Assembly (NCBI GenBank): GCA_020201095.1
Contig: JAIVHM010000145.1
Location: 12,988 to 48,087, forward strand
Direction of reading: 5' to 3'
From: Halomonas sp.
Lineage (GTDB): Bacteria; Pseudomonadota; Gammaproteobacteria; Pseudomonadales; Halomonadaceae
Length of the DNA: 35,100 bases
The first letter of the stretch is position 1, and each line of letters starts with the position of its first letter. A model generated the notes under the pieces. That model did no database searches, was not told the DNA's origin, and worked only from the letters and a program-made list of their open reading frames with translations. Shown here piece after piece: positions 8,196 through 27,069 of this stretch. A program made the translations under genes and the position numbers.

Positions 8196-9356
8196 ATGCC
8201 AGCGACGTCACTGACGCTTACCGACTCGCCGCTTACATTAAACTGGGCGTCGCCTTACGGGCTTCAGCCAATCAGTCCACTATGGTTGCGCGAGAGGACT
8301 CAGGATCCAGCGCAATTAGACGTATTAACCTGCCAGCGTTTATTCGATTCACATCGAATTGACCCAGATTTGACTCTGACGGGGGCACGGTCGTTGAGTG
8401 AGACGCGTATCGAGTTCACTTTCAGCGACGGCCATGTCGAAGTCTATGATCTTGAGGCATTGGCTTTAGAGCTCGAAGGCGATGGCAGCTTTCCCAATCC
8501 GATTCCCTGGGACAGCCGCATTGATCAATCCGCGCAGCGGTTCGATTGGAACCAAATGGGAGATAACGATGCTTTTCACAAGGCACTCAAAGCCTACCTT
8601 CAACGCGGTTACATCATCCTGACAGGCGTGCCCACCGACCCTGAGCGAATACTGGAGGTCGGAAGGCATTTTGGATACGTAAAGGAAACGAATTTCGGTC
8701 GGTACTTCGAGGTATATTCACGGCCTGCTGGTAATGATCTTGCCTATCGCAGCGTTGCACTTGGCCCTCATACCGATAACCCCTATCGCAGCCCAGTACC
8801 AGGTATCCAGATGCTACATTGTCTGGTTAACGAAACCACAGGCGGTCTTTCGACACTGGTCGACAGCCTCAAGGTTCTTGAATTACTTAAAATTGAGCAC
8901 CCTCAAGGCTTCGAACTCTTGCGTACAACGCCGGTTGGGTATCGCTTCATTGATGCTGGCACTGAGCTGACAGCGCGTCGCTGCATGATTCGCACCGATG
9001 CAGACGGAGAACCCGTCGGGGTTCACTACAGTCCACGTCTCGATAGATTGCCTCACCTGTCTCCGGAGGATACACAACTGTTTCACCTGACTCGTCAGCG
9101 GCTGGGCGAGCTATTTGCAGATCCTGACTTTGAAATCCGCTTCCAACTCAATGCAGGGGAGCTGATGTTTTTTGACAACAATCGGGTTCTGCATGGTCGC
9201 ACCGCTTTTGACACACAGGAAGGAAGGCGACATCTGCAAGGCTGTTATTTGGACAGCGATGGGCCACGGGAGCGCTTCGCAACCACATTGATAAACGCTC
9301 GCGATCAGGCCGGTGAACGTACATATACTCATCAAACGGAGGAATACAACGGATGA
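8196..9356 (+). CDS. tmpA: Fe(II)/2-oxoglutarate-dependent oxygenase of the gamma-butyrobetaine hydroxylase/TauD superfamily; candidate TmpA (2-trimethylaminoethylphosphonate hydroxylase)
   Basis: HxD in GPHTDNPYRSPVPGIQMLHCL, distal His in FFDNNRVLHGRTAFD, BBOX-like N-terminal domain (LNWASPYGLQPISPLWLRERT...CQRLFDS), 4-bp overlap with a downstream HD-domain oxygenase gene. Confidence 0.72.
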   Translation: MPATSLTLTDSPLTLNWASPYGLQPISPLWLRERTQDPAQLDVLTCQRLFDSHRIDPDLTLTGARSLSETRIEFTFSDGHVEVYDLEALALELEGDGSFPNPIPWDSRIDQSAQRFDWNQMGDNDAFHKALKAYLQRGYIILTGVPTDPERILEVGRHFGYVKETNFGRYFEVYSRPAGNDLAYRSVALGPHTDNPYRSPVPGIQMLHCLVNETTGGLSTLVDSLKVLELLKIEHPQGFELLRTTPVGYRFIDAGTELTARRCMIRTDADGEPVGVHYSPRLDRLPHLSPEDTQLFHLTRQRLGELFADPDFEIRFQLNAGELMFFDNNRVLHGRTAFDTQEGRRHLQGCYLDSDGPRERFATTLINARDQAGERTYTHQTEEYNG

Positions 9357-9952
9357 AGCAAGTAGCATTCACCCAAATGAAAGATGGCACCGCTGAAGAG
9401 TACCGGTTTCTGGAACGGCTTGAAGATCAGTTTAACGAAGGACTAATTGATCGTCTTATTAAGGCGCTGCAAAACCTTGAGCAAGGCCTGAGTGGCTATC
9501 AGGTAAGTCGCCTGGAGCACTCGCTGCAATCCGCCGCTCGTGCTGAAGCCGACGGCGGTGACGATGACCTTGTCGTCGGCGCCTTGCTGCACGACCTGGG
9601 CGATGAACTGGCGCCGTACAATCACTCGCAGCTGGCCGCAAGCATCATTCGCCCTTATGTAAGGGCTGAAATCACCTGGATAATTCATCATCACGGGTTG
9701 TTTCAAAAAGTTTACTACGCGCACTACTTTGGCGAGGACCCGCATGAGCGCGATCGCTATCGTCATCATCCTTGGTACCAGAAGTGCGTCGATTTCTGCG
9801 AACTTTACGATCAGGCGGCCTTCGATCCGAACTACCCGACGCCGCCACTAAAGCACTTCGAACCCGCACTGCGGCGAGTGTTTTCACGCACGCCCTTTGA
9901 TCCCGCGATAATCGGGGAGGAACCTGCCGAGGACTTCAATAGCCTAGCTTGA
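9353..9952 (+). CDS. tmpB: HD-domain protein, candidate TmpB/PhnZ-type diiron oxygenase
   Basis: GYQVSRLEHSLQSA, ALLHDLGDELAPYNHSQLAASIIRPYV, IIHHHGLF, ELYDQAAFDPNYP: His/His-Asp/His/His/Asp series typical of HD oxygenases; ATGA overlap with the upstream 2OG oxygenase. Confidence 0.72.
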   Translation: MKQVAFTQMKDGTAEEYRFLERLEDQFNEGLIDRLIKALQNLEQGLSGYQVSRLEHSLQSAARAEADGGDDDLVVGALLHDLGDELAPYNHSQLAASIIRPYVRAEITWIIHHHGLFQKVYYAHYFGEDPHERDRYRHHPWYQKCVDFCELYDQAAFDPNYPTPPLKHFEPALRRVFSRTPFDPAIIGEEPAEDFNSLA

Positions 9953-10070
9953 TCATAGGGAATCAGGGGGATGGTGAGAACATTGATGTCGCTCATCAAG
10001 TGACGTATAAGTGCTCTTGATAAGGGTGGTTTTCTGTCTGTGGACCTAATCCGCCGAGCCCAACCAATCA

Positions 10071-11024
10071 GTGTCGAGGATGTACGTGGCCGCCCGACAA
10101 TTCTCTAACCTGTTGTCTTCAGACCTTGGGGCTCTCCCATCACTGCGTGGCCTCATCGCATTTGAGGCCACCGTCAGGTGTGGTTCGATGACAGCCGCTG
10201 CGGACGATATGAATACAACGCAGCCCACCATTTCTCAGCGCATCCGCGCACTCGAAGACCATCTGGGCTGCCCGCTGTTTGACCGCAGGGGCGGTCGTCT
10301 ATCTCTCAATGCTCGGGGTGAAGCCTTCTACGAAGAAATAGCGCCTGGCTTGGAACGTGTTTGCGGTGCTATTAATGATATTCGTCGTCAGACACAGGAA
10401 CGGACCCCCGTCATCAGTATCGCAGCGGGCGCAGGCTTTACCCACATGTGGTTGAGACCGCGCTTGACACGCCTGGAAAACACCTTTCCCGATCGATCAT
10501 TTCGCCTAATACCAATCGACCGAGACGAAGCCCCTGAGATGCAGAGTGCCGATATCGCCCTACGGTTTGGGCCAACTCTGCAGGATGAGCTTACCGACAC
10601 ACTGGTAGTGCCCGAAAAAGCTTTTCCTATATGCAGCCCTGAGTACGCCAACCAGCATCATCTAGACACCGAACTGGATGCCAAAGCACTTCATCGCATC
10701 ACCTTGCTGCACCTGGATATTCGTGACCCTCGCTGGCTGGACTGGGCGAGCTGGTGCAGACTTGCACACTTGTCTCCTCCTCCTCTTGAAAAGGCATTTC
10801 CCTACAACAACTTCCCTCTCTTACTCAATGCAGTGGTCAACCACCAAGGGGTCGCCCTTGGTTGGAGTCATGTGATCCAGGATATGCTGAATAGCGGTCA
10901 GCTTGTCGCCCTGGGACCCCATGTAACTCGCAAGAGCCATGGCTACCGTCTTAGTGTGCGAAATCCCGATAGTGCGGTGATCGCGCCTATCGTTAGCTGG
11001 CTTGAACGGGAGTTTGCGGGATAG
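10071..11024 (+). CDS. LysR-family transcriptional regulator (GcvA-like)
   Basis: SLRGLIAFEATVRCGSMTAAADDMNTTQPTISQRIRALEDHLGCPLFDRRGGRLSLNARGEAFYEEI, a canonical LysR HTH. Confidence 0.92.
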   Translation: MSRMYVAARQFSNLLSSDLGALPSLRGLIAFEATVRCGSMTAAADDMNTTQPTISQRIRALEDHLGCPLFDRRGGRLSLNARGEAFYEEIAPGLERVCGAINDIRRQTQERTPVISIAAGAGFTHMWLRPRLTRLENTFPDRSFRLIPIDRDEAPEMQSADIALRFGPTLQDELTDTLVVPEKAFPICSPEYANQHHLDTELDAKALHRITLLHLDIRDPRWLDWASWCRLAHLSPPPLEKAFPYNNFPLLLNAVVNHQGVALGWSHVIQDMLNSGQLVALGPHVTRKSHGYRLSVRNPDSAVIAPIVSWLEREFAG

Positions 11025-11165: not shown

Positions 11166-12296
11166 ATGTCTGATTTAAGTTATCTGCGCACAAACACCCC
11201 CGACCGCTTCAACGCTGATAGCGACCAGCCGACAATGAAAGCCGTGGTAACAACTGGCAATGGCGGCTATGAGAAACTCCACTACTGCGATGTTACGATC
11301 CCCACACCAGGACCCGGTGAGGTGTTGATCAAAGTGTTGGCTGCGGGTGTCAATAACACGGAAATCAATACGCGCCTTGGCTGGTATTCTTCATCTGTTG
11401 AAGGTGGCACCGAGCAGCTATCTGAAACCGACAGCGAATCGACGATTGAGGATGGAGGCTGGAACGAAACAACGCCATTTCCACTCATTCAGGGCACTGA
11501 TTGTTGCGGAGAGGTCACAGACAAAGGCGAGGGAACAAGTGAGCTGGAAATAGGGCAACGCGTGCTTGTTAGGGCTTGCATGCGCCTTAACGGCTTTGAT
11601 TCGCTGGATAACCTTTGGATGGCATCGGATTTTGACGGCGCCTTCGCCCAATACGTCAAAGTGCCCGCAAGTGAGGTATTTGAAATCAATTGCGATTGGA
11701 GCGACGAGGAACTTGCCACCATTCCCTGTGCCTATGGAACGGCTGAAAACATGCTCTACCGGGCAGATGTTAAAGCGACTGACCGGTTGTTGGTTACCGG
11801 AGCGTCTGGCGGCGTTGGCTCAGCCGTTGTTCAACTGGCCAAGCGGCGTGGTGCCCATGTAATTGCCGTGGCTGGGGCCCACAAACTTGATTTGGTTCGT
11901 GGCATTGGGGCTGACCAAGTGCTCCCTCGGGACCCAGACTTAATTGCAGAGCTTGGGGAGTCATCGGTGAATGTTGTCATCGACAATGTCGCCGGTGACC
12001 AGTTCGGGCAGTTGCTGAAACTGATGGCACGTGGTGGTCGGTACGCATCTTCTGGCGCCATTGCGGGGCCGATTACGACCATTGATATGCGTGACTTTTA
12101 TCTCAAGGATTTGACGCTGATTGGTTGCACAGCCTGGGATGAACCAATCTTTTCAGACCTTATCAGGTATATTGAGAATGATGAGATACGCCCTCTGGTA
12201 GCGCAATCGTTCGCACTGAAAGACATTGCGACGGCACAACAGGCGTTTCTCGAGAAACGACATTTCGGGAACTTTGTGCTGGTACCACCAGCTTAA
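11166..12296 (+). CDS. Medium-chain dehydrogenase/reductase (zinc-type alcohol dehydrogenase/quinone oxidoreductase-like)
   Basis: MKAVVTTGNGGYEKLHYCDVTIPTPGPGEVLIKVLAAGVNNTEINTRLGWY, VTGASGGVGSAVVQLAKRRGAHVIAVAG Rossmann motif. Confidence 0.9.
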   Translation: MSDLSYLRTNTPDRFNADSDQPTMKAVVTTGNGGYEKLHYCDVTIPTPGPGEVLIKVLAAGVNNTEINTRLGWYSSSVEGGTEQLSETDSESTIEDGGWNETTPFPLIQGTDCCGEVTDKGEGTSELEIGQRVLVRACMRLNGFDSLDNLWMASDFDGAFAQYVKVPASEVFEINCDWSDEELATIPCAYGTAENMLYRADVKATDRLLVTGASGGVGSAVVQLAKRRGAHVIAVAGAHKLDLVRGIGADQVLPRDPDLIAELGESSVNVVIDNVAGDQFGQLLKLMARGGRYASSGAIAGPITTIDMRDFYLKDLTLIGCTAWDEPIFSDLIRYIENDEIRPLVAQSFALKDIATAQQAFLEKRHFGNFVLVPPA

Positions 12297-12463
12297 TGAT
12301 ACAGGTCGTGCGAAAATTATTTGATTGTGAACATTATTTATCTGATTGCCTCAATGTCCGGCTTGATTCAAGGCCGGTTCGTAATAGCAAAAGAACAACC
12401 GTTCATCAATCGGATAATTGATGCTCTTACGTCACCACGTTCTTTAACCTCTTTAACGACAGA

Positions 12464-12482
12464 AAGCCGCTAAAAGCGGCTT
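12464..12482. terminator. Hairpin between convergent genes, probable bidirectional terminator
   Basis: aagccgct-aaa-agcggctt perfect 8-bp stem, between the MDR stop (12296) and the SBP stop (12513). Confidence 0.55.
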
Positions 12483-12512
12483 CCTGTGATGCGAGGCTAT
12501 CGTTCAAAAGAA

Positions 12513-13394
12513 TTAAATCAGGTCATTTTCCTCAAGAAAATTCTCCGCTACATCTTCGATGCTTTCACGTTCAACATCGACGCTAGCGTTGAGATTGGCC
12601 ATCGTCTGGTCATCCAGTAGTGCAGAGAGGGTATTCATCTGCTCAGCCAGTTCTGGAGCGGCCTCGAGGGTTTCCTCGCGGACGACCGGCGTCAAAGAAT
12701 AAGCGGGGAAGAAGCCCCGAGTATCTTCTAGGATTTCTAAATCGAAGGCTGGTACACGGCCGTCGGTTGAAAAGACAACCGCGACATCGACTTCAGCATC
12801 TCGCAGCGCTGAATACATAAGCCCAGTATCCATGCGGGTTATATCGCTGCGATCAACCTTGAAACCATATTCCTTCTGGAGCGGACGCCAGCCGTCATCA
12901 CGCGCATAAAACTCGGTGTCCAGGCCGATGGGTATTTCATCCCCATTGTTGAGCGCATCCGCTAGGTCGTCGAGCGTCTCGATACCACGCTCTTCTGCAT
13001 CTGCTTCGCGCATGGCCAGCGCATAGGTGTTGTTGGCATCAGAAGGATTCAACCAAACGATACCTTTTTCAGCGTCCAGCTCCTTGACCCGCTCATAAGT
13101 AGCTTCATCAGATAGCGATTCGCTGACATCGTTATAGACAATTAGGGACGTTCCCGTGTACTCCCAATAGAGATCGACTTGGCCGTTCTCTTGAGCCTGA
13201 CGCAGCACGGCGGAGCCCATGCCATCACGGCGGCTTATGTCATGACCCAGAGCGTCAAGGTACTGCTCTGTCATACTGGAAAGAATTAGCTGTTCAGTGT
13301 AGTTCTTACCTCCAACGGTGATTTCAGCGGCTCCAGCGGTGGTGATCGCACTGGCCAAAGCCAAACCAGACAGCGTGGTTATCAGACGTTTCAT
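12513..13394 (-). CDS. Glycine betaine/quaternary-amine-type ABC transporter substrate-binding protein (OsmF/YehZ/OpuCC-like)
   Basis: Signal peptide MKRLITTLSGLALASAITTAGAAEITVGGKNYTEQLILSSMTEQYLDALGHDI...VDLYWEYTGTSLIVYND. Confidence 0.88.
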   Translation of the reverse strand: MKRLITTLSGLALASAITTAGAAEITVGGKNYTEQLILSSMTEQYLDALGHDISRRDGMGSAVLRQAQENGQVDLYWEYTGTSLIVYNDVSESLSDEATYERVKELDAEKGIVWLNPSDANNTYALAMREADAEERGIETLDDLADALNNGDEIPIGLDTEFYARDDGWRPLQKEYGFKVDRSDITRMDTGLMYSALRDAEVDVAVVFSTDGRVPAFDLEILEDTRGFFPAYSLTPVVREETLEAAPELAEQMNTLSALLDDQTMANLNASVDVERESIEDVAENFLEENDLI

Positions 13395-13460
13395 AGGTAA
13401 TACTCCTTATTTTGCTAATGGTTGATCTTACTAAAGATCAATAATGTCCAGCACGAGCAC

Positions 13461-14192
13461 TCAGGGCCGCGCTGGATTGACGCCGCGAGGAACCACCAAA
13501 AAAGCTGTGGTGGCGATCAGGGCATCGACAACGATTGCCAGCAAAGCGGTGGGGATGGCACCGGCCAGCATCATCACAGGGTCATACAGATCAATGCCGG
13601 TAAAAATCAGCTCACCTAACCCGCCAGCGCCAATCAAGAAAGCCAGCGGTACGGTACCCACGTTGATTGTCAAAGCCGTGCGCATGCCCGCAAAAATAAC
13701 GTACAGGGCGTTAGGCAGCTCCACCTTGAGTAGGCGCTGGGTTGGGGACATACCGATACCGGCCGCAGCCTCCATAAGGGCGGCATCTACCCCCTTGAGG
13801 CCGGCATAGGTATTGCGAGCGATCGGCAACAGTGTCGCCACGAACAAACCAAATATCGCAGGAACCGAACCGATGCCCAGGAAACTCATCGAGAGTGCCA
13901 GCACCGCGAGCGTGGGGATGGTGGTGCCGATGTTAAGCACCTGCATTAACGACTCCGCCCAGCGCGTCATGCTCGGGCGGGACAACAAGATACCTAGGGG
14001 AATGGCCACCAGGATGGCCAAGCCACCAGAGATCGCAGTCAGCCAAAGATGCTGGATGGCGAGGTACTCTACATCGGGCAAATACCATAAAAATTCTTCA
14101 ATGATCCCGCTGGACTGTGTCCACACCCCCGCACAGAAAATCACCACCAGCAAGAAACCACGCAGGGCCCCTTTCATGCTCTGGATAGGCAT
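13461..14192 (-). CDS. Quaternary-amine ABC transporter permease (OpuC/YehY/YehW-like)
   Basis: Hydrophobic protein with ABC permease EAA-like motif ALMEAAAGIGMSPTQRLLKVELPNALYVIFAGMRTALTINVGTVPLAFLIGAGGLGELIF. Confidence 0.88.
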   Translation of the reverse strand: MPIQSMKGALRGFLLVVIFCAGVWTQSSGIIEEFLWYLPDVEYLAIQHLWLTAISGGLAILVAIPLGILLSRPSMTRWAESLMQVLNIGTTIPTLAVLALSMSFLGIGSVPAIFGLFVATLLPIARNTYAGLKGVDAALMEAAAGIGMSPTQRLLKVELPNALYVIFAGMRTALTINVGTVPLAFLIGAGGLGELIFTGIDLYDPVMMLAGAIPTALLAIVVDALIATTAFLVVPRGVNPARP

Positions 14193-14196
14193 AGGC

Positions 14197-15357
14197 TCAC
14201 TCCTTTATAACGCTGTCGGAATGGCGGCTTACAGCCTCTCGAGCACGGTAGCGTGAGCCCAGATGGTGAGTGATCGCACGCTGGGTAATCTGGCCACAGA
14301 CATACCCCCTGTCGTCAACGCAGGGCAACCACGTCGCATCTTGGGCGAACATTATCGAGGCCACTTTACGCAGGTCATCGTCCAGGTAAACAGTTGCCGG
14401 AACATTCTCGTAGTGATCGCGGCAATAGCCTTTGGTCGTCCTTGCGGTCGCTCGAGTCACAAGACCCACCGGCTGGCGCTGTTCGTTGATCATCAGAATT
14501 GCGCTCTGATAACCATAATCTTCCATTCGGGCCAGTGCTGCTTCCAAGGTATCGCTCGGTTTCACCGATCCGATCTCGTCGGAAACGACTTCTTGAACTT
14601 TGACAAGATTGAGACGCTTGAGCGCTCGGTCTTCGCCAAGGAAGGATTCGACAAACTCGTTTTTGGGTGCGGCCAGAAGATCGTCGGGTGAAGAATACTG
14701 CACCAGTTTTCCCTCACGAAATATTGCCACCTTATCGCCCATCTTGATCGCCTCATCAATGTCGTGGCTGACGAACATGATGGTCTTGTTCAGTTCCTGC
14801 TGCATTTTGAGGAACTCATCCTGGATCACCGCTCGGTTGATGGGATCGATGGCCCCGAAAGGCTCGTCCATCAGCATCACCGGTGGGTCGGCGGCGAGCG
14901 CGCGGGCCACTCCGATGCGTTGCTGTTGGCCCCCGGAGAGCTCACTGGGAAAGCGCTTGAGGAAGGCGTCGGGTTCCATAGAGATCATCGCCATCATATC
15001 CCGGGCCCGTGCCTTGTACTTGGCCTTATCCCAGCCCAGCAGCTTGGGCACGATCGTGATGTTCTCCTCGATGGTCATGTTGGGGAACAGCCCGATCTGC
15101 TGGATCACATAGCCAATATTGCGGCGCAAGTCCTGCGTATTCATGTCGGTCGTATCTTCACCGTTGATGAATACTTTGCCTGACGTCGGCTTCACGATGC
15201 GGTTGATCATCTTAAGGGTGGTGGTCTTGCCACAGCCCGATGGGCCAAGCAGGATACAGATCTCGCCGCTGGGCACCTCCATGCTAATGTGATCGGAAGC
15301 GACCACGGCGCCCTTGGGCGTGTCGAAGACCTTAGTCAGGTTATCGAGTTGGATCAT
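14197..15357 (-). CDS. Quaternary-amine ABC transporter ATP-binding protein with tandem CBS domains (OpuCA-like)
   Basis: Walker A GPSGCGKTTTLKMINR, signature LSGGQQQRIGVARALAADPPVMLMDEPFGAIDP, C-terminal CBS pair (VVSDEIGSVKPSDTLEAALARMEDYGYQSAILM...). Confidence 0.93.
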   Translation of the reverse strand: MIQLDNLTKVFDTPKGAVVASDHISMEVPSGEICILLGPSGCGKTTTLKMINRIVKPTSGKVFINGEDTTDMNTQDLRRNIGYVIQQIGLFPNMTIEENITIVPKLLGWDKAKYKARARDMMAMISMEPDAFLKRFPSELSGGQQQRIGVARALAADPPVMLMDEPFGAIDPINRAVIQDEFLKMQQELNKTIMFVSHDIDEAIKMGDKVAIFREGKLVQYSSPDDLLAAPKNEFVESFLGEDRALKRLNLVKVQEVVSDEIGSVKPSDTLEAALARMEDYGYQSAILMINEQRQPVGLVTRATARTTKGYCRDHYENVPATVYLDDDLRKVASIMFAQDATWLPCVDDRGYVCGQITQRAITHHLGSRYRAREAVSRHSDSVIKE

Positions 15358-15396
15358 ACCAATGTCCTTGTTGTCTCGGTCGTCAAAGGCTTTCTA

Positions 15397-16098
15397 TCAG
15401 GCAGTGGAACCGTCAAGCTCCATGCCTCGGGGGGTCAGGCGCTTCTGCACGAAGAGCAGAGTGTAGTCGACGATGACAGCCAGTAGACTTACTGCCACAG
15501 CGCCCACAATCAGTTGGCGCGGGTCAGACTGTGAAATGCCACGACTAATAAATGCGCCTAACCCACCGGCACCGATATAGGCGGCAATCGCCATCACACC
15601 AATATTGAGTACCACCGCCGTCCGCACGCCAGCCATGATCACCGGCACTGCCAGAGGAATCTCCACAAATCGCAGGCGCTGGTTAGGACTCATCCCGATT
15701 CCCCGAGCAGCCTCTCGCAGCGCCGGATCGACGTTATTGATCGCGGTATAAGTGTTACGGATGATTGGTAGCTGCGAATAGAGCAGCACGGCAATCACCG
15801 CGGGCAGGTAGCCTATACCCTGGCCGATTAGCGAGAGCACCGGAATCATAATGCCGAACAACGCAATCGACGGAATGGTGACGATAACCGAGGCGATGTA
15901 GAGCACGCTCTGTGCCAGACGCTCGTTCTTAGTGATGGCGATGCCGATCGGCACACCCGTCAAGGTAGCGACCCCGACAGCAACGCCTACCAGAGCAATA
16001 TGCTCCAGGGTACGCTCGACCAAAAGATCAATGCTGTCCAATGCATACAGAACCAGTTCCAAGTCAACTCTCCTCTTAGTGAGGGCAACACGCGCCAT
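15397..16098 (-). CDS. Quaternary-amine ABC transporter permease (second)
   Basis: ALREAARGIGMSPNQRLRFVEIPLAVPVIMAGVRTAVVLNIGVMAIAAYIGAGGLGAFISRGI permease motif; same operon. Confidence 0.88.
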   Translation of the reverse strand: MARVALTKRRVDLELVLYALDSIDLLVERTLEHIALVGVAVGVATLTGVPIGIAITKNERLAQSVLYIASVIVTIPSIALFGIMIPVLSLIGQGIGYLPAVIAVLLYSQLPIIRNTYTAINNVDPALREAARGIGMSPNQRLRFVEIPLAVPVIMAGVRTAVVLNIGVMAIAAYIGAGGLGAFISRGISQSDPRQLIVGAVAVSLLAVIVDYTLLFVQKRLTPRGMELDGSTA

Positions 16099-16643: not shown

Positions 16644-18065
16644 TCAGGCACCCAGTATTGCCTTGGTTTCAACATACTCAAGGAGGCCTTCATCACCCCA
16701 TTCACGCCCATTACCGGATTGCTTGTAGCCACCGAAAGGAGCATCAAATGAAAACTCGGCTCCTTGAATATAACACTGGCCCGCTTTTAGGCGTCGTGCG
16801 ATGGGGAGCGCCTCGTCGACATCGCGAGCATATACCGCCGATGAAAGCCCATACGCCGTATCGTTCGCAATCTCAATGGCCTCTTCTAACGTGTCATACG
16901 CGATGATACAGAGAACCGGTCCGAAGATCTCTTCACGAGCAATCTTCATGTCATTACGCACATCACTAAAGATAGTGGGGCGGATGTAATAACCTTTGGA
17001 AAAACCTTCAGGTGCTTCCACGCCACCTTCGATCAAGGTAGCGCCATCTTCCAAACCACTCTGAATGAACCCCACCACGAGATCTTTCTGACGACGCGAG
17101 ACAAGAGGCCCCATCGTTGTGCTTGAGTCTCCAGGATCCCCAACGATCTGTTCCTTGGCGATCTCACCGGCCAGCTTTGCAGCTTGTTGCAGCTGCTTTC
17201 TGGGTACCAACATGCGCGTCAGGGCATCGCATGTTTGACCGGTATTCGCCATCACATTTTCTACACACAAGCGAACAGCCGCGTTCAGATCAGCCTCTTC
17301 GGTAATTACCAATGGCGACTTTCCGCCCAGTTCCTGGCAAACGCGCTTAATGCCTGGCGCAGCATTTTCCGCGACATTGGCTCCGGCCGTGGTCGAGCCG
17401 GTGAACGACACCATATCCACATAGGGATGCCCTGCCATCACCGGGCCAATTTCTGGCCCCACACCCGTTACCAAGTTAAATACGCCTGGGGGCAGGCCAA
17501 TACTGTCAAATATCTCGGCCATGATAAAATCTTGCAAAGGCGTTTGTTCCGCTGGCTTGGCCACCACGGTACAGCCTGCCGCCAACGCAGGTGCAAGTTT
17601 GCCAATCAATTGACTCAGTGGATAATTCCAGGGATTGATAAGCGAACATACCCCTATGGGTTCGTGAGAAATGACAACCCCTTCCTTACGTTCTGTCTGC
17701 TCCATCTTGAAAGCGCGTTCGGCGTAATAACGCATGCCTTCAATGGGACCATCTACATGAATGGCGCCTGTCGTCTGGATGGGACTGCCTAGCGTCGTGA
17801 CATGTACATCGCAAAGCTCATCATAACGGCGCTGCATCTCGTCTGCCGCCGCCATCAACAGCTCGTAACGCCGCTGGGCCGATGTCGCGGCCCAAGCGGG
17901 TAGCGCGGCTTGTGCCGCCGACAGCGCTTTCTCGACATCCTCTGAGCTTGCACGAGGTACTGAAGCACAGAGCCCCTCTGTCGCCGGATTCAGCACTTCA
18001 AGGCGTTCTTCGCCGCTGGGTGCTTCCCACTGGCCATTGATATAAAAACGGTCTCTGTGTTGCAT
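16644..18065 (-). CDS. NAD(P)-dependent aldehyde dehydrogenase
   Basis: PWNYPLSQLIGKLAPALAAGCTVVAKPAEQTPL, FTGSTTAGANV, CQELGGKSPLVI (Glu), NTGQTCDALTRM (Cys), EEIFGPVLCI. Confidence 0.93.
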   Translation of the reverse strand: MQHRDRFYINGQWEAPSGEERLEVLNPATEGLCASVPRASSEDVEKALSAAQAALPAWAATSAQRRYELLMAAADEMQRRYDELCDVHVTTLGSPIQTTGAIHVDGPIEGMRYYAERAFKMEQTERKEGVVISHEPIGVCSLINPWNYPLSQLIGKLAPALAAGCTVVAKPAEQTPLQDFIMAEIFDSIGLPPGVFNLVTGVGPEIGPVMAGHPYVDMVSFTGSTTAGANVAENAAPGIKRVCQELGGKSPLVITEEADLNAAVRLCVENVMANTGQTCDALTRMLVPRKQLQQAAKLAGEIAKEQIVGDPGDSSTTMGPLVSRRQKDLVVGFIQSGLEDGATLIEGGVEAPEGFSKGYYIRPTIFSDVRNDMKIAREEIFGPVLCIIAYDTLEEAIEIANDTAYGLSSAVYARDVDEALPIARRLKAGQCYIQGAEFSFDAPFGGYKQSGNGREWGDEGLLEYVETKAILGA

Positions 18066-18194
18066 GCGCTACTCCCCTATTCTGGGCGCTGGCTGAATGG
18101 ACATTCGGGAGCATTCTTTTAGCAAGCGCCGGTGAAGCGAAATGGCGGCAGCGTTTGCCGCGTCATGGTCTTGAATGGCTTAGGCTTAATACCT

Positions 18195-19172
18195 TCAGCT
18201 CGGTTCTTCTGTCAATTCCCGACCTCTAGCAAACACTTCATACCCGACCTCCTCCGGCTCATCGTCGGTGAGCTCCTCAGGGAAACCATCACCCAACACC
18301 TTCACATCACTGCGTTCTTCCAAGCGGCGAATGATGTTAGACGACCATTCACGAGCGCCGAAAGACGCTTGCCCATCGCGGAAGATATCCATGAGCAGTG
18401 GCGAGATCTCTAGAGGTACATCCAGATTTTTTGCCAGGGAATCAAAAAGGCCCACATCTTTGAGCACGAGATCCATGGTAAAGCTTATATTACGGCTGCC
18501 GTTGAGGATCACCTGAGATTCCGTCTCATGCACAAATGAATTACCCGATGAGATTCGGATTGCCTCGTAGGCCGTATTCATATCCATCCCTGCCTTTTTC
18601 GCCACCGTCAGAGCTTCAGACAGCGCGCACAAGTTGGCAGTGGCCAAGTAGTTCGTCAGAACCTTAAGGACTGACGCTGACCCTAGAGGCCCGGTATGAA
18701 GCACACGGCGACCGAGCGAGGTAAGTACCGGCAGAACCTTGTCGAAGCTTTCACGATCACCGCCAACAAAGATAGAAATGTTGCCGGTAGCAGCACGATG
18801 GCAGCCCCCAGAGACAGGCGCCTCGACAGCCCGAGCCCCCGTACTATTGACTCGTTCAGCTATACGGACGAGTTCTTGATCGTCCGTCGTACTCATCTCA
18901 AGCCACACTTTCCCTGCCGAAAGCCCTGCAATGATGCCATCGTCGGCTTCCATAACGGCACTGCATGCAGCCGGTGAAGGAAGGCAGGTGATGATAAGGT
19001 CTGAGGTTTCAGCAAGTGCCTTGGGAGACTCGGCCCCACTAGCGCCTTGATCAATAAAGGCTTGGGTGACGACTGGATCCAAGTCTCTAATCGTGACGTC
19101 ATGGCCGTTACGAATCAAACTAGCTGCAAGCTTGCCGCCTACATTTCCGAGCCCTACGAAACCTATTTTCAT
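18195..19172 (-). CDS. NAD(P)-dependent beta-hydroxyacid dehydrogenase (3-hydroxyisobutyrate dehydrogenase family)
   Basis: MKIGFVGLGNVGGKLAASLIRNGHDVTIRDL, VEAPVSGGCHRAATGNISIFVGG, VLKVLTNYLATANLCALSEALTVAKKAGMD. Start set at the internal Met of MGRQYMKIGF. Confidence 0.9.
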   Translation of the reverse strand: MKIGFVGLGNVGGKLAASLIRNGHDVTIRDLDPVVTQAFIDQGASGAESPKALAETSDLIITCLPSPAACSAVMEADDGIIAGLSAGKVWLEMSTTDDQELVRIAERVNSTGARAVEAPVSGGCHRAATGNISIFVGGDRESFDKVLPVLTSLGRRVLHTGPLGSASVLKVLTNYLATANLCALSEALTVAKKAGMDMNTAYEAIRISSGNSFVHETESQVILNGSRNISFTMDLVLKDVGLFDSLAKNLDVPLEISPLLMDIFRDGQASFGAREWSSNIIRRLEERSDVKVLGDGFPEELTDDEPEEVGYEVFARGRELTEEPS

Positions 19173-19425
19173 GTACTGCCTTCCCATCTATTTTTTGGAC
19201 AGATAGCGCGGCATAACAGGTGAGAGGAACGAGGTTTCCCACGGCTGCATCCGTCGCTAAAGGCAAACTACCGCAGGTATTATGAGAGGACAATTCACGT
19301 TATTTTCATGACTGGTAACATTTCGTATTTTTTACTTAATGGATAAAACCAGACATGCTCCAGAAGATAAAAAAATATCGAAACATAAAAAATTTAAATT
19401 AACCAATTAGCGGTGTCATTAAACA

Positions 19426-20346
19426 TTAACGTGATGCTTGTGAGGAAAGCCAGTCAATAAGGCGCTTTATTCGCTCGCTTGAAATCATATCTTTATGACA
19501 TACAAGGCCCCATTCACCAGGAGAATCGATCACTTGGTCTGCAGGATTAACCAAACGGCCATCGGCTAGGGCATCATCGGCAAAAGGCCCATTAACAAGT
19601 GCAACGCCCTCACCCCTTTCAGCCATTTCAAGGGCGGCAGCTAATGTATCGACAATAATACTTCCTTTAGGATATTCGTGCTCATGTGACGACAACGGTG
19701 GGTTAAGAGCATTCAGCCAGTTACTCCATGTCCAACTTTCTGTATAAACCTCGATTAACGGATAGTTCTTCAGCTGCTCTGGCGACAATGGCCGTTGACG
19801 CTCATCCAACATATCGGGGCTACAAACGGGAAAAATTTGTGAAGGAAATAACGGCGTCCAATGAAGATGATCAGGCAGAGGCGTATCTCGATAGATAATC
19901 GCTACATCAGCATTGGCTTCGTCGAAATCCCAACCCACGCTGTACGTCATGACTTGCAATTCGATTTCAGGGTAGCTTTCGTGAAACTGAGCAAGGCGCG
20001 GGGCAAGCCAACGTATTGATGTGGTGACATAGACCTGCATCCGAAGTGGATCAGCATCATACAAATGGCGAGCCGCTTCTGCACCGCTGATCAGTGTGGT
20101 GATGGCGTCACGCACGTGGGGGTAAAAGCGATGGCCAGCAGCCGTCAATAGTATGTTACGGCCCTTGCGTTCAAATAATTTGACGCCAAGGTTTTCCTCT
20201 AACCTATGAATTTGATTGGCAATAGCGGGATGCGTTAAGTGCAGTTCTTCTGCGGCGGCACGCAGATTTTGCAACCGTGCAGCTGCCTCGAAACCTCGCA
20301 GAGAACTGAGGGGTGGCAACTTGTGCAAGGGCAAGGGCGTTGTCAT
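19426..20346 (-). CDS. LysR-family transcriptional regulator (GcvA-like)
   Basis: LPPLSSLRGFEAAARLQNLRAAAEELHLTHPAIANQIHRLEENLGVKLFERKGRNILLTAAGHRF. Confidence 0.92.
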   Translation of the reverse strand: MTTPLPLHKLPPLSSLRGFEAAARLQNLRAAAEELHLTHPAIANQIHRLEENLGVKLFERKGRNILLTAAGHRFYPHVRDAITTLISGAEAARHLYDADPLRMQVYVTTSIRWLAPRLAQFHESYPEIELQVMTYSVGWDFDEANADVAIIYRDTPLPDHLHWTPLFPSQIFPVCSPDMLDERQRPLSPEQLKNYPLIEVYTESWTWSNWLNALNPPLSSHEHEYPKGSIIVDTLAAALEMAERGEGVALVNGPFADDALADGRLVNPADQVIDSPGEWGLVCHKDMISSERIKRLIDWLSSQASR

Positions 20347-20351
20347 GTTGA

Positions 20352-21107
20352 TCAGATCACGCGAGATGACAGTTGACGGGCGGCCTGAACGATAAATTTT
20401 GAATAGCCACGAGCATCCTGAGCGCTCAAGAAGTCACCGTCGATAACCGCACTGATTGCCGCAATGGGCTCGTTACGAAGATTAAGCACTGGGGCCGCCA
20501 GGAAATGTGTGCTTTTCTGAGACGTTCCGGTTGAGGTGGCATACCCCAAGCGATGCGCCCGTTCCAGCGCCAATAGCAAGTCATCATATTCACTGTCTCC
20601 CCGCTCGAGACCCAGTTCTTCAGCAAGATAGTTTTTCCAAGAGGCCTGAGGCCTCATGGCCAATATTGCCTTTCCTGCTGCGTCCTCATGGAACCCCATT
20701 GTCTTACCGATATAGAGATTGAGGCCGTTGTTAGACAGGTTATCTACCTTGGATACCAACACAACTTTGTTACCGATAGGCACGCTTAGGAAAATAGGCT
20801 TGTGGATTTCATTTTTGAGGATTTCTGCAATCGGATAGAAGTAGGGTATCAGGCTCTGCTTGTTATAAATTGTCGATGAAATCTGGAAAATCCGAGAGCC
20901 AATGCAATACGACTTCTTCCTATTAGGATCCTGGGCAACCAGTTGGTGATGCAGCAACGCGTTGACCACTCGATGCCCAGTAGCAGGCGAAATGCCGGTC
21001 GACTCACAGATTTCAGACAGTGTAAGTGGATAGGTAGAAGCGGCAAGAATGTCCAGGATCATGACACTATGATCGACCGCCGGTGCCTTGGTCTTTTCAA
21101 AATTCAT
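20352..21107 (-). CDS. IclR-family transcriptional regulator
   Basis: VDHSVMILDILAASTYPLTLSEICESTGISPATGHRVVNALLHHQLVAQDPNRKKSYCIGSRIFQI plus IclR ligand domain (GFHEDAAGKAILA). Confidence 0.92.
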   Translation of the reverse strand: MNFEKTKAPAVDHSVMILDILAASTYPLTLSEICESTGISPATGHRVVNALLHHQLVAQDPNRKKSYCIGSRIFQISSTIYNKQSLIPYFYPIAEILKNEIHKPIFLSVPIGNKVVLVSKVDNLSNNGLNLYIGKTMGFHEDAAGKAILAMRPQASWKNYLAEELGLERGDSEYDDLLLALERAHRLGYATSTGTSQKSTHFLAAPVLNLRNEPIAAISAVIDGDFLSAQDARGYSKFIVQAARQLSSRVI

Positions 21108-21208
21108 GCTGCTTGTGACACTCCTAAGCGTTTATACGGTGGTCTATCGGTCTTGACTCGCTTGCCCTAACACTTTCAGTTGACTTGTTAATTGATATCA
21201 CTGCATTT

Positions 21209-22825
21209 TTAGATGGCGTGGTCATCCAGAACCAGGCCAGCTCCTTTTTCCGCTACCATCATCACCGGGGCATTCAGATTGCCAGAGGTAATATTGGGGA
21301 AGATAGACGCATCAATAACCCTGAGACCTTTCACTCCATGGACGCGCAGGCGACTGTCTACAACGGCATCGTCGGGATTCGGCCCCATCCTGCAGGTGCC
21401 ACACAGATGATATATGGAGCCTGCATTGGCACGAAAGTACTCTACCATGCTTTCTTCATCATCAACGGCATTGCCCGGAAACACCTCAGCCTCGGTGATT
21501 GCCTGCAACTCCTGGGTAGCCATCAGCTTTCTGATCAGTTTGGTTCCTTGAATAGCTTCGTCGATATCCCGTTGAGTTGTGAAGTAGTTCGGGCGGATGA
21601 TCGGCGGGTCAGCGGGATCAGAAGAGGCAATATCGACGGTACCTCGACTTGATGGTCGGCAAGAATTAAATGCCATCAAAAAGCCGGAGTAAGGCTCAGG
21701 TGACAACTTCGCGTTTGGATTGCTAGGTATCTGGTAAGACATCGGATTGAAGTAAAGCTGAATATTGGGAAACGCTTCTTGCTCATTTCCCTTGAAGAAC
21801 CCACCCGCCTGATTGACGCTCATGCCCAAAGGGCCACTGCGGTTGACCAAGTACTGCAGACCTGCCTTCGCTTTCGCCCAAAAGGAAGCAAAATCATCAT
21901 TCAACGTTTTACGGTTGGCGCGATAATAAAAGCTAACGGCCAGGTGGTCCTGAAGGTTTTGACCTACCGCTGGCAGGTAAGCCGCTGGCTTAATACGGTG
22001 CCTTGCAAGAAGGTCAGTATCACCTACCCCAGACAGCTGTAAAAGTTTGGGCGAGTCCACGGCCCCGGCGCAGATAATGACTTCACGGCTCGCCCGAACC
22101 GATGTCCTGACGCCCTCGACATGGTACTCAACGCCGACAGCCTTACGGTCTTCATTAAAGATCACCTTTTCTACCTGACTTACCCGCTTGAGTTCCAAGT
22201 TGGACCGTGACAGCGCTGGCTTCAGGTAGGCGGTGTTGCTGGAATCACGCTGTCCGTTTCGAATATTGGCTTCGTAGATCCCCGCCCCTTCAATCGATGC
22301 ACCATTGAAATCGTCATTGAGGGGGTATCCAAGCTTATGAGCGGCTTGCAAATATGACTGACAGATGGGGTGGGCAGCATCTTTTAATGGTGTGATGCCG
22401 ATCTTACCTTGGCGAGAGTGATACTCAGTGTCTCCCGCAGGATGCTCCTCCAGCTTCTTGAAATAAGGAAGCAAGGAAGCGTAATTCCACCCATCGTTTC
22501 CAGCCCGTTCCCAGTCATCGAAGTCAGAAGGCTGCCCTCGAACATAGATCATCGCGTTGATTGAGCCTGATCCCCCCTGGACCTTGCCCCGAGGCGCATA
22601 CATCTTACGGTTAGCCAGCGCGGTTTCTTCGGCACTGTAATACATGTAGTTGTACTTGGGGTGGTAGTAAGTCTTGGCAAAACCTACAGGCACTTTGATC
22701 CAAGGGGAGACATCACGCCCCCCCGCTTCAACGACTAATACCCGATGGTATCCACTGGCACTTAAGCGGTTGGCAAGGACACATCCGGCTGACCCTGCTC
22801 CGACGATGATGAAGTCGTATTCCAT
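21209..22825 (-). CDS. GMC-family FAD-dependent oxidoreductase (choline dehydrogenase-like)
   Basis: MEYDFIIVGAGSAGCVLANRLSASGYHRVLVVEAGG, GKVQGGSGSINAMIYVRG, CAGAVDSPKLLQLSGVGD, VHGVKGLRVIDASIFPNITSGNLNAPVMMVAEKGA. Confidence 0.95.
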   Translation of the reverse strand: MEYDFIIVGAGSAGCVLANRLSASGYHRVLVVEAGGRDVSPWIKVPVGFAKTYYHPKYNYMYYSAEETALANRKMYAPRGKVQGGSGSINAMIYVRGQPSDFDDWERAGNDGWNYASLLPYFKKLEEHPAGDTEYHSRQGKIGITPLKDAAHPICQSYLQAAHKLGYPLNDDFNGASIEGAGIYEANIRNGQRDSSNTAYLKPALSRSNLELKRVSQVEKVIFNEDRKAVGVEYHVEGVRTSVRASREVIICAGAVDSPKLLQLSGVGDTDLLARHRIKPAAYLPAVGQNLQDHLAVSFYYRANRKTLNDDFASFWAKAKAGLQYLVNRSGPLGMSVNQAGGFFKGNEQEAFPNIQLYFNPMSYQIPSNPNAKLSPEPYSGFLMAFNSCRPSSRGTVDIASSDPADPPIIRPNYFTTQRDIDEAIQGTKLIRKLMATQELQAITEAEVFPGNAVDDEESMVEYFRANAGSIYHLCGTCRMGPNPDDAVVDSRLRVHGVKGLRVIDASIFPNITSGNLNAPVMMVAEKGAGLVLDDHAI

Positions 22826-22829
22826 CGCG

Positions 22830-24065
22830 TCATTGCTCCGGCATGTGTTTCCAGTCGGTGCCCGACTGGTCTTTATAGTCGTAAGGCGTCGGGTTCATGC
22901 TCAGGTGCAACACCTTGCCGGTATAAGGTGAATGGGCCTTCACCACGGCCATATCGAGCTCGATGCCTAGCCCGGGCTTGCTAGAGGGGATGACGTAGCC
23001 GTCACGCCACTCGATCTTTTCCTGAAGGACCTCGGCATGAAACCCACCCCAGGTACCGATGCTTTCCTGGATGAGAAAATTGGGGGTTGCTGTTGCTAGC
23101 TGAATGCTCGCCGCGGCGCCCACCGGGCCGTTGTAGAGATGGGGCGCAATCTGTGCATAGTGCACCTCCGCCAAGGCAGCGATCTTCTTGCCCTCAAGTA
23201 TGCCGCCGACACGACTCAGGTTCATCTGAAGAATCGATGCAGCCCCGTGGCTAAGCAGGTCGTGGAACTCATACTTGGTCGTGAGGCGCTCCCCTGTCGC
23301 AATGGGGATAGAAGTTTGGGCCGCTACGCGCGCCATTGCCTCGCTCTGGCCCGGCGGCACTGGCTCTTCAAACCACAGCGGATCATACGGTTCTAGTCGC
23401 TTAGCGAGGCGTATAGCCGATGCTGGCGTCATCTGCCCATGAGTGCCAAACAAGAGGTCACAGTCGTTACCTACCACTTCCCGAATGCGCTGACAGAAGA
23501 TGGCGCTCTTTTCCATGGCTTCCAGAGAAAGCATATGACCTGAGTAGGCCGTATAAGGACCTGCCGGATCAAACTTGAGAGCGGTAAAGCCTAGCGCCTT
23601 GTTCTCAAGGGCACACTCAACGGCCAGCTCCACATTGTCGTAGTTGTAGTTCCCGTCGGCATCACAGGGATACAAATAGGTGTAAGTGCGCAACTTGTCA
23701 TGCACTTTACCGCCAATCAGCTCGTAAACGGGCTTGCCCACGGCCTTGCCGATGATATCCCAGCATGCGATTTCAAGCCCGCTAAGCACGCCCATCATGG
23801 TCAAGTCGGCACGCTGGGTAAATCCACTTGAGTACGCTTCACGGTAGAGACGCTCAATGTGGTGAGGGTCTTTGCCTTTCAAGTAGCGTTCGAAGACATC
23901 CTCAATGGCTGCTTTCATCACCTGTGGATGAAAGGATGCCGCATAGACTTCCCCGATGCCCTCAACACCGCACGCTGTCCCAAGCTTTACAAATATCCAG
24001 TACATACCACCGACGTGAGGTGGAGGCGTAGCAACCACGTAGGGCTCGCAACTGACAACTTTCAT
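22830..24065 (-). CDS. Mandelate racemase/muconate lactonizing enzyme (enolase superfamily), sugar-acid dehydratase/cycloisomerase-like
   Basis: MLSGLEIACWDIIGKAVGKPVYELIGG-type N-domain, GTHGQMTPASAIRLAKRLEPYDPLWFEEPVPP, IATGERLTTKYEFHDLL, QMNLSRVGGILEGKKIAALAE, IAPHLYNGPVG. Start set at MKVVSCEPY (residue 17 of the track ORF 22830..24113). Confidence 0.9.
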   Translation of the reverse strand: MKVVSCEPYVVATPPPHVGGMYWIFVKLGTACGVEGIGEVYAASFHPQVMKAAIEDVFERYLKGKDPHHIERLYREAYSSGFTQRADLTMMGVLSGLEIACWDIIGKAVGKPVYELIGGKVHDKLRTYTYLYPCDADGNYNYDNVELAVECALENKALGFTALKFDPAGPYTAYSGHMLSLEAMEKSAIFCQRIREVVGNDCDLLFGTHGQMTPASAIRLAKRLEPYDPLWFEEPVPPGQSEAMARVAAQTSIPIATGERLTTKYEFHDLLSHGAASILQMNLSRVGGILEGKKIAALAEVHYAQIAPHLYNGPVGAAASIQLATATPNFLIQESIGTWGGFHAEVLQEKIEWRDGYVIPSSKPGLGIELDMAVVKAHSPYTGKVLHLSMNPTPYDYKDQSGTDWKHMPEQ

Positions 24066-24335
24066 GGATAAATCCTTTTCAAGTTGGCGTGTCAGATGGT
24101 GGTGAGACCCCACTATGAGGGGAAAGCAACGCCTTCCTCGGTAACGACTTCCCGGTAACGGCCGTCGCGTTCAGCAGGAACGACGCAGGGAATTATCTCG
24201 TCTGGTGCAACCTCTCCACTCGGAGAAAGCGCTTCGAGTGGATTAACCTTTGTGAACCAGACTTAGGGAGACGATGCTCCCACGACGTTCAAGCACCCCA
24301 CCCCATACATCAGTGACACTGCCGTGAAACACGGG

Positions 24336-25760
24336 TCAGTAGTTCAGTACTACAAGACGCGTCTGGGTGTAGTCCAACATGCCATGCTTGCCATCGTCTC
24401 CGCCCAGGCCAGAACGTTTCCAGCCCGCGTGGTAGCCCTGAAAAGGATCTGAAGGCGTACGGTTAATGTAGACTTCGCCTGCTTCAATGTTGTTGGCGAC
24501 CTTCATGGCTGTACGGTAGTCCTCGGTAAAGATCACGGAGGCAAGACCGAACTGATGGTCGTTGGCCATCGCCAATGCCGAGTCGATAGTGTCATACGTC
24601 AGTACTGGCAAAACGGGGCCGAAGATCTCTTCCTGAACAATCTCCATGTTCTGGCGACACTGCGTTAGTAATGTCGGCGGATAGAAATGCCCAGGGCCTT
24701 CTGGGATGTAGCCGCCAGTTTGCAGGCTCGCGCCATCATCAATGGCTCGTTCAACCATCTGGTGGATATTGAGGCGAGAATTTTCGTTGATCAGCGGCCC
24801 CATGAAATCGCTGTTATCGGCACGATTGCCGAATGGTAAAGCTTCAAGATGAGATTTCAGCAGATCGGTAAATTTCTCAGCGATAGACTCATGTACGTAT
24901 ACACGCTCAATAGCCGTACATAGTTGACCACAATTGCTCGTTTTGGAGTCAACGATCTGCTTTGCCGCCTGCTCGAGATCCGCATCTGGCTCCACAATAG
25001 CAGGAGACTTACCACCCAACTCCAAGGAAGACTTGGCAATATTGACTTGGGAGTACTCCAACACCTTACGACCCGCACCGACGCTACCGGTCAAGGTAAT
25101 CATCCCTACCTTCGGGTGCGTGCAGACGGCTTCCGCCGTGGGATGATCCATCGTCAGAATATTCACCACGCCAGCTGGAATCCCAGCCTCCTTGACCGCC
25201 TCGGCAATCTTGAAAGCTGAGCAAGGCGTATTGTTACTAGGCCGCACCACGACGCTATTGCCGGTGATGAGCGCCGGCGCAATCTTTCTGAGCAGGGTGA
25301 AAACCGGGTAATTGAACGGAATCAAGCAAGCCACCACCCCGATCGGCTCGCGTTGAAGTAGCAGGCTTTCGTTTGGCGTATCGCTAGGCATGATGTCGCC
25401 TTCAATACGGCGAGCCCACTCAGCGTGGTAACGCGTGATATCAGCTGCGTAGACCGCTTCGTTGGTCGCGTCTTCGAGACTCTTTCCCGACTCTTCAGCT
25501 AACGCCTGTCCGATGTCATGACGATGCGCCATCAGCGCGTCTGCAAGCTTGTACATATGGCCTGCGCGTTCAACGCTCGTTAGGCGACGCCACGCTTTCT
25601 GAGACGCGGCAGCGGCATCAACTGCTTTAAGCGCCTGCTCTGTATTCGCAGCCTGTACCTGCCCCACCAGTGTTTCGTTGGCCGGGTTATAGACTGGAAT
25701 CATGACGTTTTGCGGAGAAGAGACAAATTCATTATTGATGAAATTTCCGTCAGTGCTCAT
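24336..25760 (-). CDS. NAD-dependent aldehyde dehydrogenase (AldA-like)
   Basis: PFNYPVFTLLRKIAPALITGNSVVVRPSNNTPCSA, LTGSVGAGRKVLEY, LELGGKSPAIVEPDAD, NCGQLCTAIERVYV, EEIFGPVLPVLTYD. Confidence 0.93.
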   Translation of the reverse strand: MSTDGNFINNEFVSSPQNVMIPVYNPANETLVGQVQAANTEQALKAVDAAAASQKAWRRLTSVERAGHMYKLADALMAHRHDIGQALAEESGKSLEDATNEAVYAADITRYHAEWARRIEGDIMPSDTPNESLLLQREPIGVVACLIPFNYPVFTLLRKIAPALITGNSVVVRPSNNTPCSAFKIAEAVKEAGIPAGVVNILTMDHPTAEAVCTHPKVGMITLTGSVGAGRKVLEYSQVNIAKSSLELGGKSPAIVEPDADLEQAAKQIVDSKTSNCGQLCTAIERVYVHESIAEKFTDLLKSHLEALPFGNRADNSDFMGPLINENSRLNIHQMVERAIDDGASLQTGGYIPEGPGHFYPPTLLTQCRQNMEIVQEEIFGPVLPVLTYDTIDSALAMANDHQFGLASVIFTEDYRTAMKVANNIEAGEVYINRTPSDPFQGYHAGWKRSGLGGDDGKHGMLDYTQTRLVVLNY

Positions 25761-26410: not shown

Positions 26411-27069
26411 TTATCCTTCTGTCCACATGCGATAGAGATTGCTCTTTGACTTGAAGAGCCGATCAAAAGCCGGGGTTTTCCCCTCTGTCTCGAAAATAGC
26501 CCGAGTGGCTGCATCAAGATCATACAGAATCTCACGCTAGGCAGGATCTTTGATCCAGCTTGTCACCCAACCGACAACCGCTATGCGCTCCCCCAAGCCA
26601 CGGGCTCTACGCGATGCAAAGCGCTGATGGGATAGAGCACCAAGTCACCTGGCTGTAACCGTATCACCCGTGCTTCGATATTATCCTCGATGATCAAGCC
26701 ACCACCCTCGTAGCTGTCGGGTTCGGAGAGCAGTAAGGTAAACGACAGATCGGTTCGGCAATCGTTCATGACGGGGTCGTCGACGTGAGTCCCATACTCC
26801 ATCCCCGATCGATAACGAGAGACCAGCATGCGAGCAAACTTGCGTGGCCTTGCGGCACTCTTAAACACCTCGTGCCGGTTCAGGGCCTTTTTGACCTTAG
26901 CCAGAATGGCATCGCGCTCAGCCGACGCCTGGGCATTATGCTTTACCCCGCGGGCATAGCGGCCTGCGGTGTTTATACCATCTTCATAAAGGATCGACTC
27001 GGCGGCCTCTCGCAAAGCCGCCACTTCGTGATGATCCAAGACATTGCCGATGATCATCATGGATATCAC
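26411..27069 (-). pseudogene. PKHD-type Fe(II)/2OG hydroxylase (PiuC/YbiX family) pseudogene
   Basis: ORF 26581..27069 gives MMIIGNVLDHHEVAALREAAES...YGTHVDDPVMNDCRTDLSFTLLLSEPDSYEGGGLIIED...LQPGDLVLYPISALHRVEPVAWGSA*; restoring one G in the G5 run near 26580 continues as ERIAVVGWVTSWIKDPA*REILYDLDAATRAIFETEGKTPAFDRLFKSKSNLYRMWTEG*, i.e. the expected PiuC C-terminus, with one further in-frame TAG. Confidence 0.8.

Follow-up and report, generated by a model that had tools for sequence, protein, structure and literature searches.

The closest described counterpart of the gene pair considered here is TmpA/TmpB of Leisingera caerulea (PDB 6npb/6npc and 6npa), a system for the degradation of 2-trimethylaminoethylphosphonate. 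Related enzymes offer landmarks at the level of single residues. In BBOX, two asparagines hold the carboxylate of the substrate (PMC4736438). In TMLH, the residue homologous to BBOX Asn191 is Asp231, which is thought to bind the alpha-ammonium group of trimethyllysine (PMC7764450, a review). Among HD oxygenases such as PhnZ and TmpB, the YxxE motif is a substrate lid (PMC8177086). A TmpA/TmpB-like route with two oxygenases had been predicted for a locus of Halomonas sp., and this locus is compared here with the known systems.

An overlapping gene pair and its distribution

Within the window, the whole 35,100 nt stretch of Halomonas sp. DNA that was analysed, a TmpA-like 2OG/Fe(II) oxygenase of 386 aa is encoded at 8196..9356 on the plus strand. 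It is followed at 9353..9952, also on the plus strand, by an HD-domain protein of 199 aa with a PhnZ/TmpB-type fold and six diiron ligands. The stop and start codons meet in a 4 bp ATGA (9353..9356, plus strand), suggesting that translation of the two genes is coupled. The overlapping oxygenase and HD genes of the original prediction are thereby borne out, as both reading frames lie on the plus strand at the expected place and have the ATGA in common. In all 41 Halomonadaceae-type loci, the window included, the hydroxylase gene directly precedes the HD gene, and the exact 4 bp overlap is kept in 25 of them; given this conservation of order and overlap, the pairing is not a product of chance. 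The pair is confirmed as real and as conserved in Halomonadaceae and beyond.

Relatives of the HD protein are found in 73 of the 151 genomes searched of the Halomonadaceae family and fall mostly into three clades: A (~80 % identity), B (~66 %) and C (~44 %). Of the 299 Pseudomonadota genomes sampled with a family profile, 41 have the HD family. Further members, on named contigs, belong to SAR11, SAR116, Betaproteobacteria, Chloroflexota and Gemmatimonadota. Library profiles name the family no further than 'HD domain', and literature searches yielded neither a description of it nor experimental evidence of the function of the pair.

The hydroxylase

The hydroxylase has a TauD fold (Pfam E 1.3e-45). 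Its best NCBIfam model is TmpA, at 330.1 bits and under the NF049936 equivalog cut-off of 400; scores against the BBOX model TIGR02409 (240.8 bits, cut-off 414.75) and the TMLH model TIGR02410 (162.5 bits, cut-off 268.3) are likewise under threshold. TmpA is also the closest solved relative by sequence (6npb, 187 bits; BBOX 116 bits) and the best fold match of the AlphaFold model (pLDDT 88), at E 2.9e-36, followed by BBOX at 3.6e-31. In a tree built by a quick method, with human BBOX on a long branch, all hydroxylase partners of the window HD family form one clade (support 97), which is sister to TmpA (92) under a joint node (99) with most BBOX-like proteins outside. Sequence, model scores, fold and tree agree that the hydroxylase is nearer to TmpA than to BBOX, as had been proposed. 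An ordinary BBOX of carnitine biosynthesis was also considered and is ruled out by the model scores, the tree and the active-site residues.

Active-site columns were numbered on human BBOX, with the Fe ligands 202/204/347 recovered as H/D/H. The window hydroxylase keeps the Fe triad H192/D194/H333, the 2OG arginine R345, and F167, F171, Y184 and Y351 at the positions of the trimethylammonium cage of TmpA. D181 occupies the BBOX Asn191 position and S279-P-R281 the positions 292–294. In TmpA, the asparagines at 191 and 292 form a pair facing the anionic part of the substrate. Asp is present at position 191 in 79 of 79 hydroxylase partners of the window HD family, N191 and N292 are both present in 14 of 14 TmpA rows adjoining TmpB/PhnZ, and position 292 is S or N in rows adjoining the window HD family (S279 in the window); a few of the rows behind these counts, which come from two collections, are near-duplicates. 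D181 corresponds to Asp231 of TMLH, and its ligand could be other than ammonium. This Asp and that of TMLH seem to have independent origins, the former inside the clade sister to TmpA. The cage is F, F, Y, Y in the window clade and degenerate in clade C (W, A, M, Y), so that a quaternary ammonium group is not assured for the clade C substrate.

Two other oxygenase genes of the same genome are recorded here. A separate BBOX-like gene (G000:C236:2613-3788, locus L238), in which N191 and N292 are kept, adjoins a betaine-type binding protein and a LysR regulator. At 26581-27069 of the window, a 162 aa Fe2+-dependent dioxygenase of the YbiX/PKHD type matches its 221-position model only up to about position 165 and is possibly truncated or frameshifted.

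The HD-domain protein

The 199 aa protein matches the Pfam HD domain at 25.1 bits (cut-off 22). The full set of candidate diiron ligands noted in the original prediction is present (H56, H80-D81, H91, H114 and D153). These ligands align with those of 20 TmpB/PhnZ proteins that the TmpB model retrieved from the same phylum. H56, Q59, H80, D81, H91 and D153 are invariant in all 148 examined members of the HD family, and H114 is found in all but one. The AlphaFold model (pLDDT 91) was used in a fold search, in which all 10 PDB matches at E < 0.001 are PhnZ/TmpB, the best being PhnZ (4n6w, E 6.4e-7); MIOX was reached at E 0.07 and ordinary HD hydrolases were not significant. The fold search thus groups the protein with PhnZ/TmpB-type oxygenases, as anticipated, and an identity as an ordinary HD hydrolase or MIOX is without a significant fold match.

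Sequence models give a more distant relationship. The TmpB model NF049941 (cut-off 300) scores 37 bits over 37 residues, and the other matches are short and weak (Phn-HD 44 bits, PhnZ 23 bits; cut-offs 215–300). Mean identity between the HD family and TmpB/PhnZ is 24–25 %, as against 40 % between TmpB and PhnZ. Four pocket motifs are absent from 148 of 148 family members: the YxxE lid, with Tyr/Phe at the Glu position (Y49 in the window); HDxGH, with Asp84 at the H62-type His; HVxAKR, with Gln118 at the K108-type Lys; and S..S..LQGG, the loop of which is deleted. The 20 TmpB/PhnZ proteins all have E at Y49, H at D84, K at Q118 and K at F157, and all carry insertions with the LQGG motif. In PhnZ, H62, K108 and S126 contact the phosphonate; beyond YxxE, the assignment of the PhnZ/TmpB pocket draws on such residue roles together with conservation. 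By these comparisons, the HD protein is a member of a family separate from TmpB and PhnZ. From its ligands and predicted fold, we infer a PhnZ/TmpB-type diiron oxygenase that would have no phosphonate site.

The original prediction had proposed clustering as a check, with BBOX on the one hand and MIOX or HD hydrolases on the other as alternatives to TmpA/TmpB. The outcome is neither, both proteins taking a third place in a sister clade.

HD genes without a hydroxylase partner

A TmpA-like gene lies near the HD gene in about half of the best 80 named loci, nearly always directly upstream. When 37 genomes that contain the HD family were searched, only 1 had a close TmpA-like relative. As many members are without a partner, locally or genome-wide, the HD enzyme need not always depend on a TmpA-like hydroxylase. 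The surroundings of partnerless HD genes include housekeeping genes, such as the PurF-like and CvpA-like ones of SAR11, SelO-type genes together with those of Rieske oxygenases, or genes of methylated-amine metabolism. These members, and the fact that HD domains are mostly hydrolases (PMC8177086), lend some weight to the view that the pair consists of a stand-alone 2OG hydroxylase and an HD phosphohydrolase or other non-oxygenase, with a coupling that is regulatory or coincidental. This is judged unlikely, since the only significant structure matches are to PhnZ/TmpB and none is to ordinary HD hydrolases, the gene overlap is conserved, and the identity of residue 191 in the partner changes without exception along with the HD family.

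In five SAR11 loci from single cells or MAGs (L207, L211, L218, L219 and L221), the HD gene has no TmpA-like partner and follows PurF-like amidotransferase and CvpA-like genes; these genomes are streamlined. In Thalassobaculum fulvum (L183:8748-10594), an HD-family gene directly follows that of a radical SAM protein, which may be an alternative partner.

Co-occurrence with TmpA/TmpB and the phosphonate question

Halomonas urmiana (L150) carries a window-type pair at 8867-10573 and then a genuine TmpA-TmpB pair at 11576-13299. The TmpA of the second pair falls in the TmpA clade and has N191/N292, and its TmpB is 56 % identical to a reference member. In locus L162, genes for an HD protein, an HIBDH-like and a TmpA-like protein are followed by a TmpA/TmpB-like pair. 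Since both adjoin each other in one genome, the window-type pair and TmpA-TmpB are different systems; the substrates of the two H. urmiana pairs are possibly related, and the window-type pair may have a phosphonate-related role, given the adjacency to TmpA-TmpB in two loci.

The original prediction went further and made the window pair a candidate for the degradation of 2-trimethylaminoethylphosphonate, which a true TmpA/TmpB pair would convert to glycine betaine and phosphate. Gene order and overlap are alike, TmpA is closer to the hydroxylase than any other characterised protein, the aromatic cage is retained, and in H. urmiana the two kinds of pair adjoin. Nevertheless, both proteins are under their equivalog cut-offs, Asn191 has become Asp and Asn292 Ser, and the HD protein, ~24 % identical to TmpB where TmpB and PhnZ share ~40 %, is without YxxE, HDxGH, HVxAKR and LQGG. 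In H. urmiana, moreover, the genuine pair alongside would be redundant. A Pho box was not found in the window, which counts weakly in the same direction, as phosphonate genes may be substrate-induced. The assignment to this substrate is accordingly not upheld and is regarded as highly unlikely. Of the predicted two-oxygenase route, the relay of two oxygenases stands as the best general reading, and the phosphonate substrate does not.

The pair may instead act on a sulfonate or on another phosphonate, such as one of the amino acid type that bears a trimethylammonium group, with D181 holding the extra ammonium and a C-P or C-S bond being cleaved. The Asp would fit an alpha-amino phosphonate, the HD protein has the PhnZ-type fold, and the pair adjoins TmpA/B-type pairs in L150 and L162. 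Those two pairs aside, annotation of the neighbours revealed neither a C-P gene nor a transporter specific to phosphonates, and not one characteristic PhnZ/TmpB pocket residue is kept in the HD family. Such a substrate is therefore considered improbable, if less so than 2-trimethylaminoethylphosphonate itself.

Genomic neighbourhood

Downstream of the pair, a LysR-type regulator is encoded at 10071..11024 on the plus strand, its nearest group being choline-sulfate/GcvA (212 bits, below cut-off). In most clade A/B loci, a relative adjoins the pair, and the window gene is likely to regulate the pair. A Zn-type alcohol/quinone oxidoreductase (11166..12296, plus strand), of which an 80 % identical gene lies beside the pair in Halomonas gemina (L145), and a glycine-betaine/choline-type ABC importer of binding protein, two permeases and ATPase (12513..16098, minus strand) are possibly associated with the pair.

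Further downstream is an ALDH/HIBDH/GMC catabolic block (16644..25760, minus strand). It encodes a BADH-like ALDH, an HIBDH-like dehydrogenase (18195-19187), LysR and IclR regulators, a choline-dehydrogenase-like GMC protein, a galactonate-dehydratase-like MR/MLE protein and a second ALDH. The block is directly beside the pair in H. gemina and is in part linked to it in L052, L175 and L182. Distant genomes also carry it alongside the pair or the HD gene (L145, L175, L182), but among halomonads it is rare, being missing in 17 of 21 that are pair-positive. In genome profiles of the 21 positives, HIBDH and MR orthologues were confined to the window genome and to three others, all of one genus (g7, apparently Cobetia); they were present in 0 of 20 genomes without the pair. 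An essential role for the block is ruled out by the absence of its orthologues from most pair-bearing genomes, and it is accessory at most. An HIBDH-like gene is linked to HD genes in seven loci at 58–85 % identity and in two more at 42–43 %, against a chance expectation of ~0.4, a rough hand estimate assuming one such gene per genome; being well above this estimate, the linkage may be meaningful.

At 29344-33260 of the window, a NuoL-like protein (PRK08168, above cut-off) is directly followed by a 781 aa protein without an NCBIfam match, an arrangement reminiscent of the DabB/DabA inorganic-carbon transporters.

Neighbouring enzymes vary from genome to genome. Clade A loci have LysR regulators and BCCT betaine transporters. 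In L165, a BADH-like ALDH and an HIBDH-like dehydrogenase directly follow the pair. L182 contains BetI-type and Rieske domains, a choline-dehydrogenase-like GMC protein and an ALDH, and L216 an MTTB-family methyltransferase and dimethylglycine-dehydrogenase-like proteins, with related genes in L193. Clade C loci (L053-L072) contain GbdR-like AraC regulators, a choline-type binding protein and, in many loci, a BBOX-like gene, together with an AruI-like 2-ketoarginine decarboxylase (763 bits, above cut-off), an aminotransferase and an Arg/Orn-type ABC importer; they look like an arginine- or trimethyllysine-related catabolic cluster. Taken together, the neighbourhoods point to quaternary or cationic amines as their common theme.

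The clade C genes also bring an alpha-oxidation of betaine acids into consideration, in which hydroxylation at C2 and cleavage would yield the acid one carbon shorter and CO2. This would be the carboxylate analogue of TmpA/TmpB, by direct chemical analogy, and its substrates would be, e.g., delta-valerobetaine or beta-alanine betaine. The transaminase and keto-acid decarboxylase of clade C could deliver such acids from trimethyllysine, and a BBOX-like gene is present in many of these loci. An Asp at the carboxylate-binding Asn position should, however, repel a carboxylate, and there is little likelihood that the pair works in this way.

Proposed function

The reading preferred here is that the pair forms a two-oxygenase catabolic relay, sister to TmpA/TmpB and acting on a different, cationic substrate; the odds for it are put at about even (roughly 0.5). 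Going by homology and conserved residues, the TmpA-like enzyme would first hydroxylate a carbon of the substrate with Fe(II), O2 and 2OG. The cationic end, probably a quaternary ammonium, would sit in the aromatic cage of F167, F171, Y184 and Y351, and an ammonium at the other end of the substrate would be held by D181, as has been proposed for Asp231 in TMLH. The HD protein, to judge from its ligands and fold, would then cleave the bond beside the new hydroxyl with O2. This is most likely a C-C bond, and likelier than a C-P bond because the phosphonate-pocket residues are gone from the HD protein.

The likeliest concrete substrate would be an amino acid whose side chain is cationic, trimethyllysine for instance, as a compound of this kind satisfies both hydroxylase contacts. 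Speculatively, hydroxylation at C3 and cleavage between C2 and C3 of trimethyllysine would give a gamma-butyrobetaine-type acid or aldehyde and a two-carbon fragment, products which the ALDH and HIBDH-like neighbours of some genomes would suit. The HD genes that lack a partner, the degenerate clade C cage and the changing neighbourhoods weigh against this reading. The more specific proposal, that hydroxylation and diiron C-C cleavage by the pair open cationic amino acids (trimethyllysine in the window clade and, in clade C, an arginine-like compound), is tentative and has perhaps one chance in several of being correct. If true, hydroxytrimethyllysine would be cut in one step toward gamma-butyrobetaine, replacing an aldolase and an aldehyde dehydrogenase, and the HD family would join the phosphonate branch and MIOX as a third functional branch of HD oxygenases.

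In methylated-amine metabolism, the pair could bring a new branch of HD oxygenases to light, one that cleaves C-C bonds. Annotation of the HD family as TmpB/PhnZ would overcount marine phosphonate degraders. The residue swap and the H. urmiana tandem make the substrate question directly testable.

Comparison with known systems

BBOX belongs to the same superfamily as the window hydroxylase and shares the 2OG/Fe residues and part of the cage. Both of its substrate asparagines are replaced in the window hydroxylase, however, and BBOX lies outside the clade of TmpA and the window protein. The HD protein resembles MIOX in its HD-type diiron ligands and in the notion that a C-C bond is cleaved, but the fold match is not significant (E 0.07) and sequence similarity was not detected. 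PhnZ, of the 2-aminoethylphosphonate system PhnY/PhnZ, shares fold and diiron ligands with the HD protein, the pocket motifs of which depart from it as they do from TmpB. TMLH resembles the window hydroxylase in the aromatic cage and in the Asp at the Asn191 position, with a predicted recognition of a second ammonium. The window hydroxylase is nevertheless not an orthologue (TIGR02410, 162 bits, cut-off 268) and, unlike TMLH, is coupled to an HD oxygenase-type protein.

TmpA/TmpB is alike in gene order and in its combination of a 2OG hydroxylase with an HD diiron-type protein; its hydroxylase is the nearest in clade and fold, with the aromatic cage and a TDNPYR motif in common. The differences are the changes of N191 to D and N292 to S, the scores of both proteins below curated cut-offs, and an HD partner from another family, ~24 % identical and without YxxE, HDxGH, HVxAKR and LQGG. 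The window-type pair is apparently a widespread, undescribed sister system of TmpA/TmpB.
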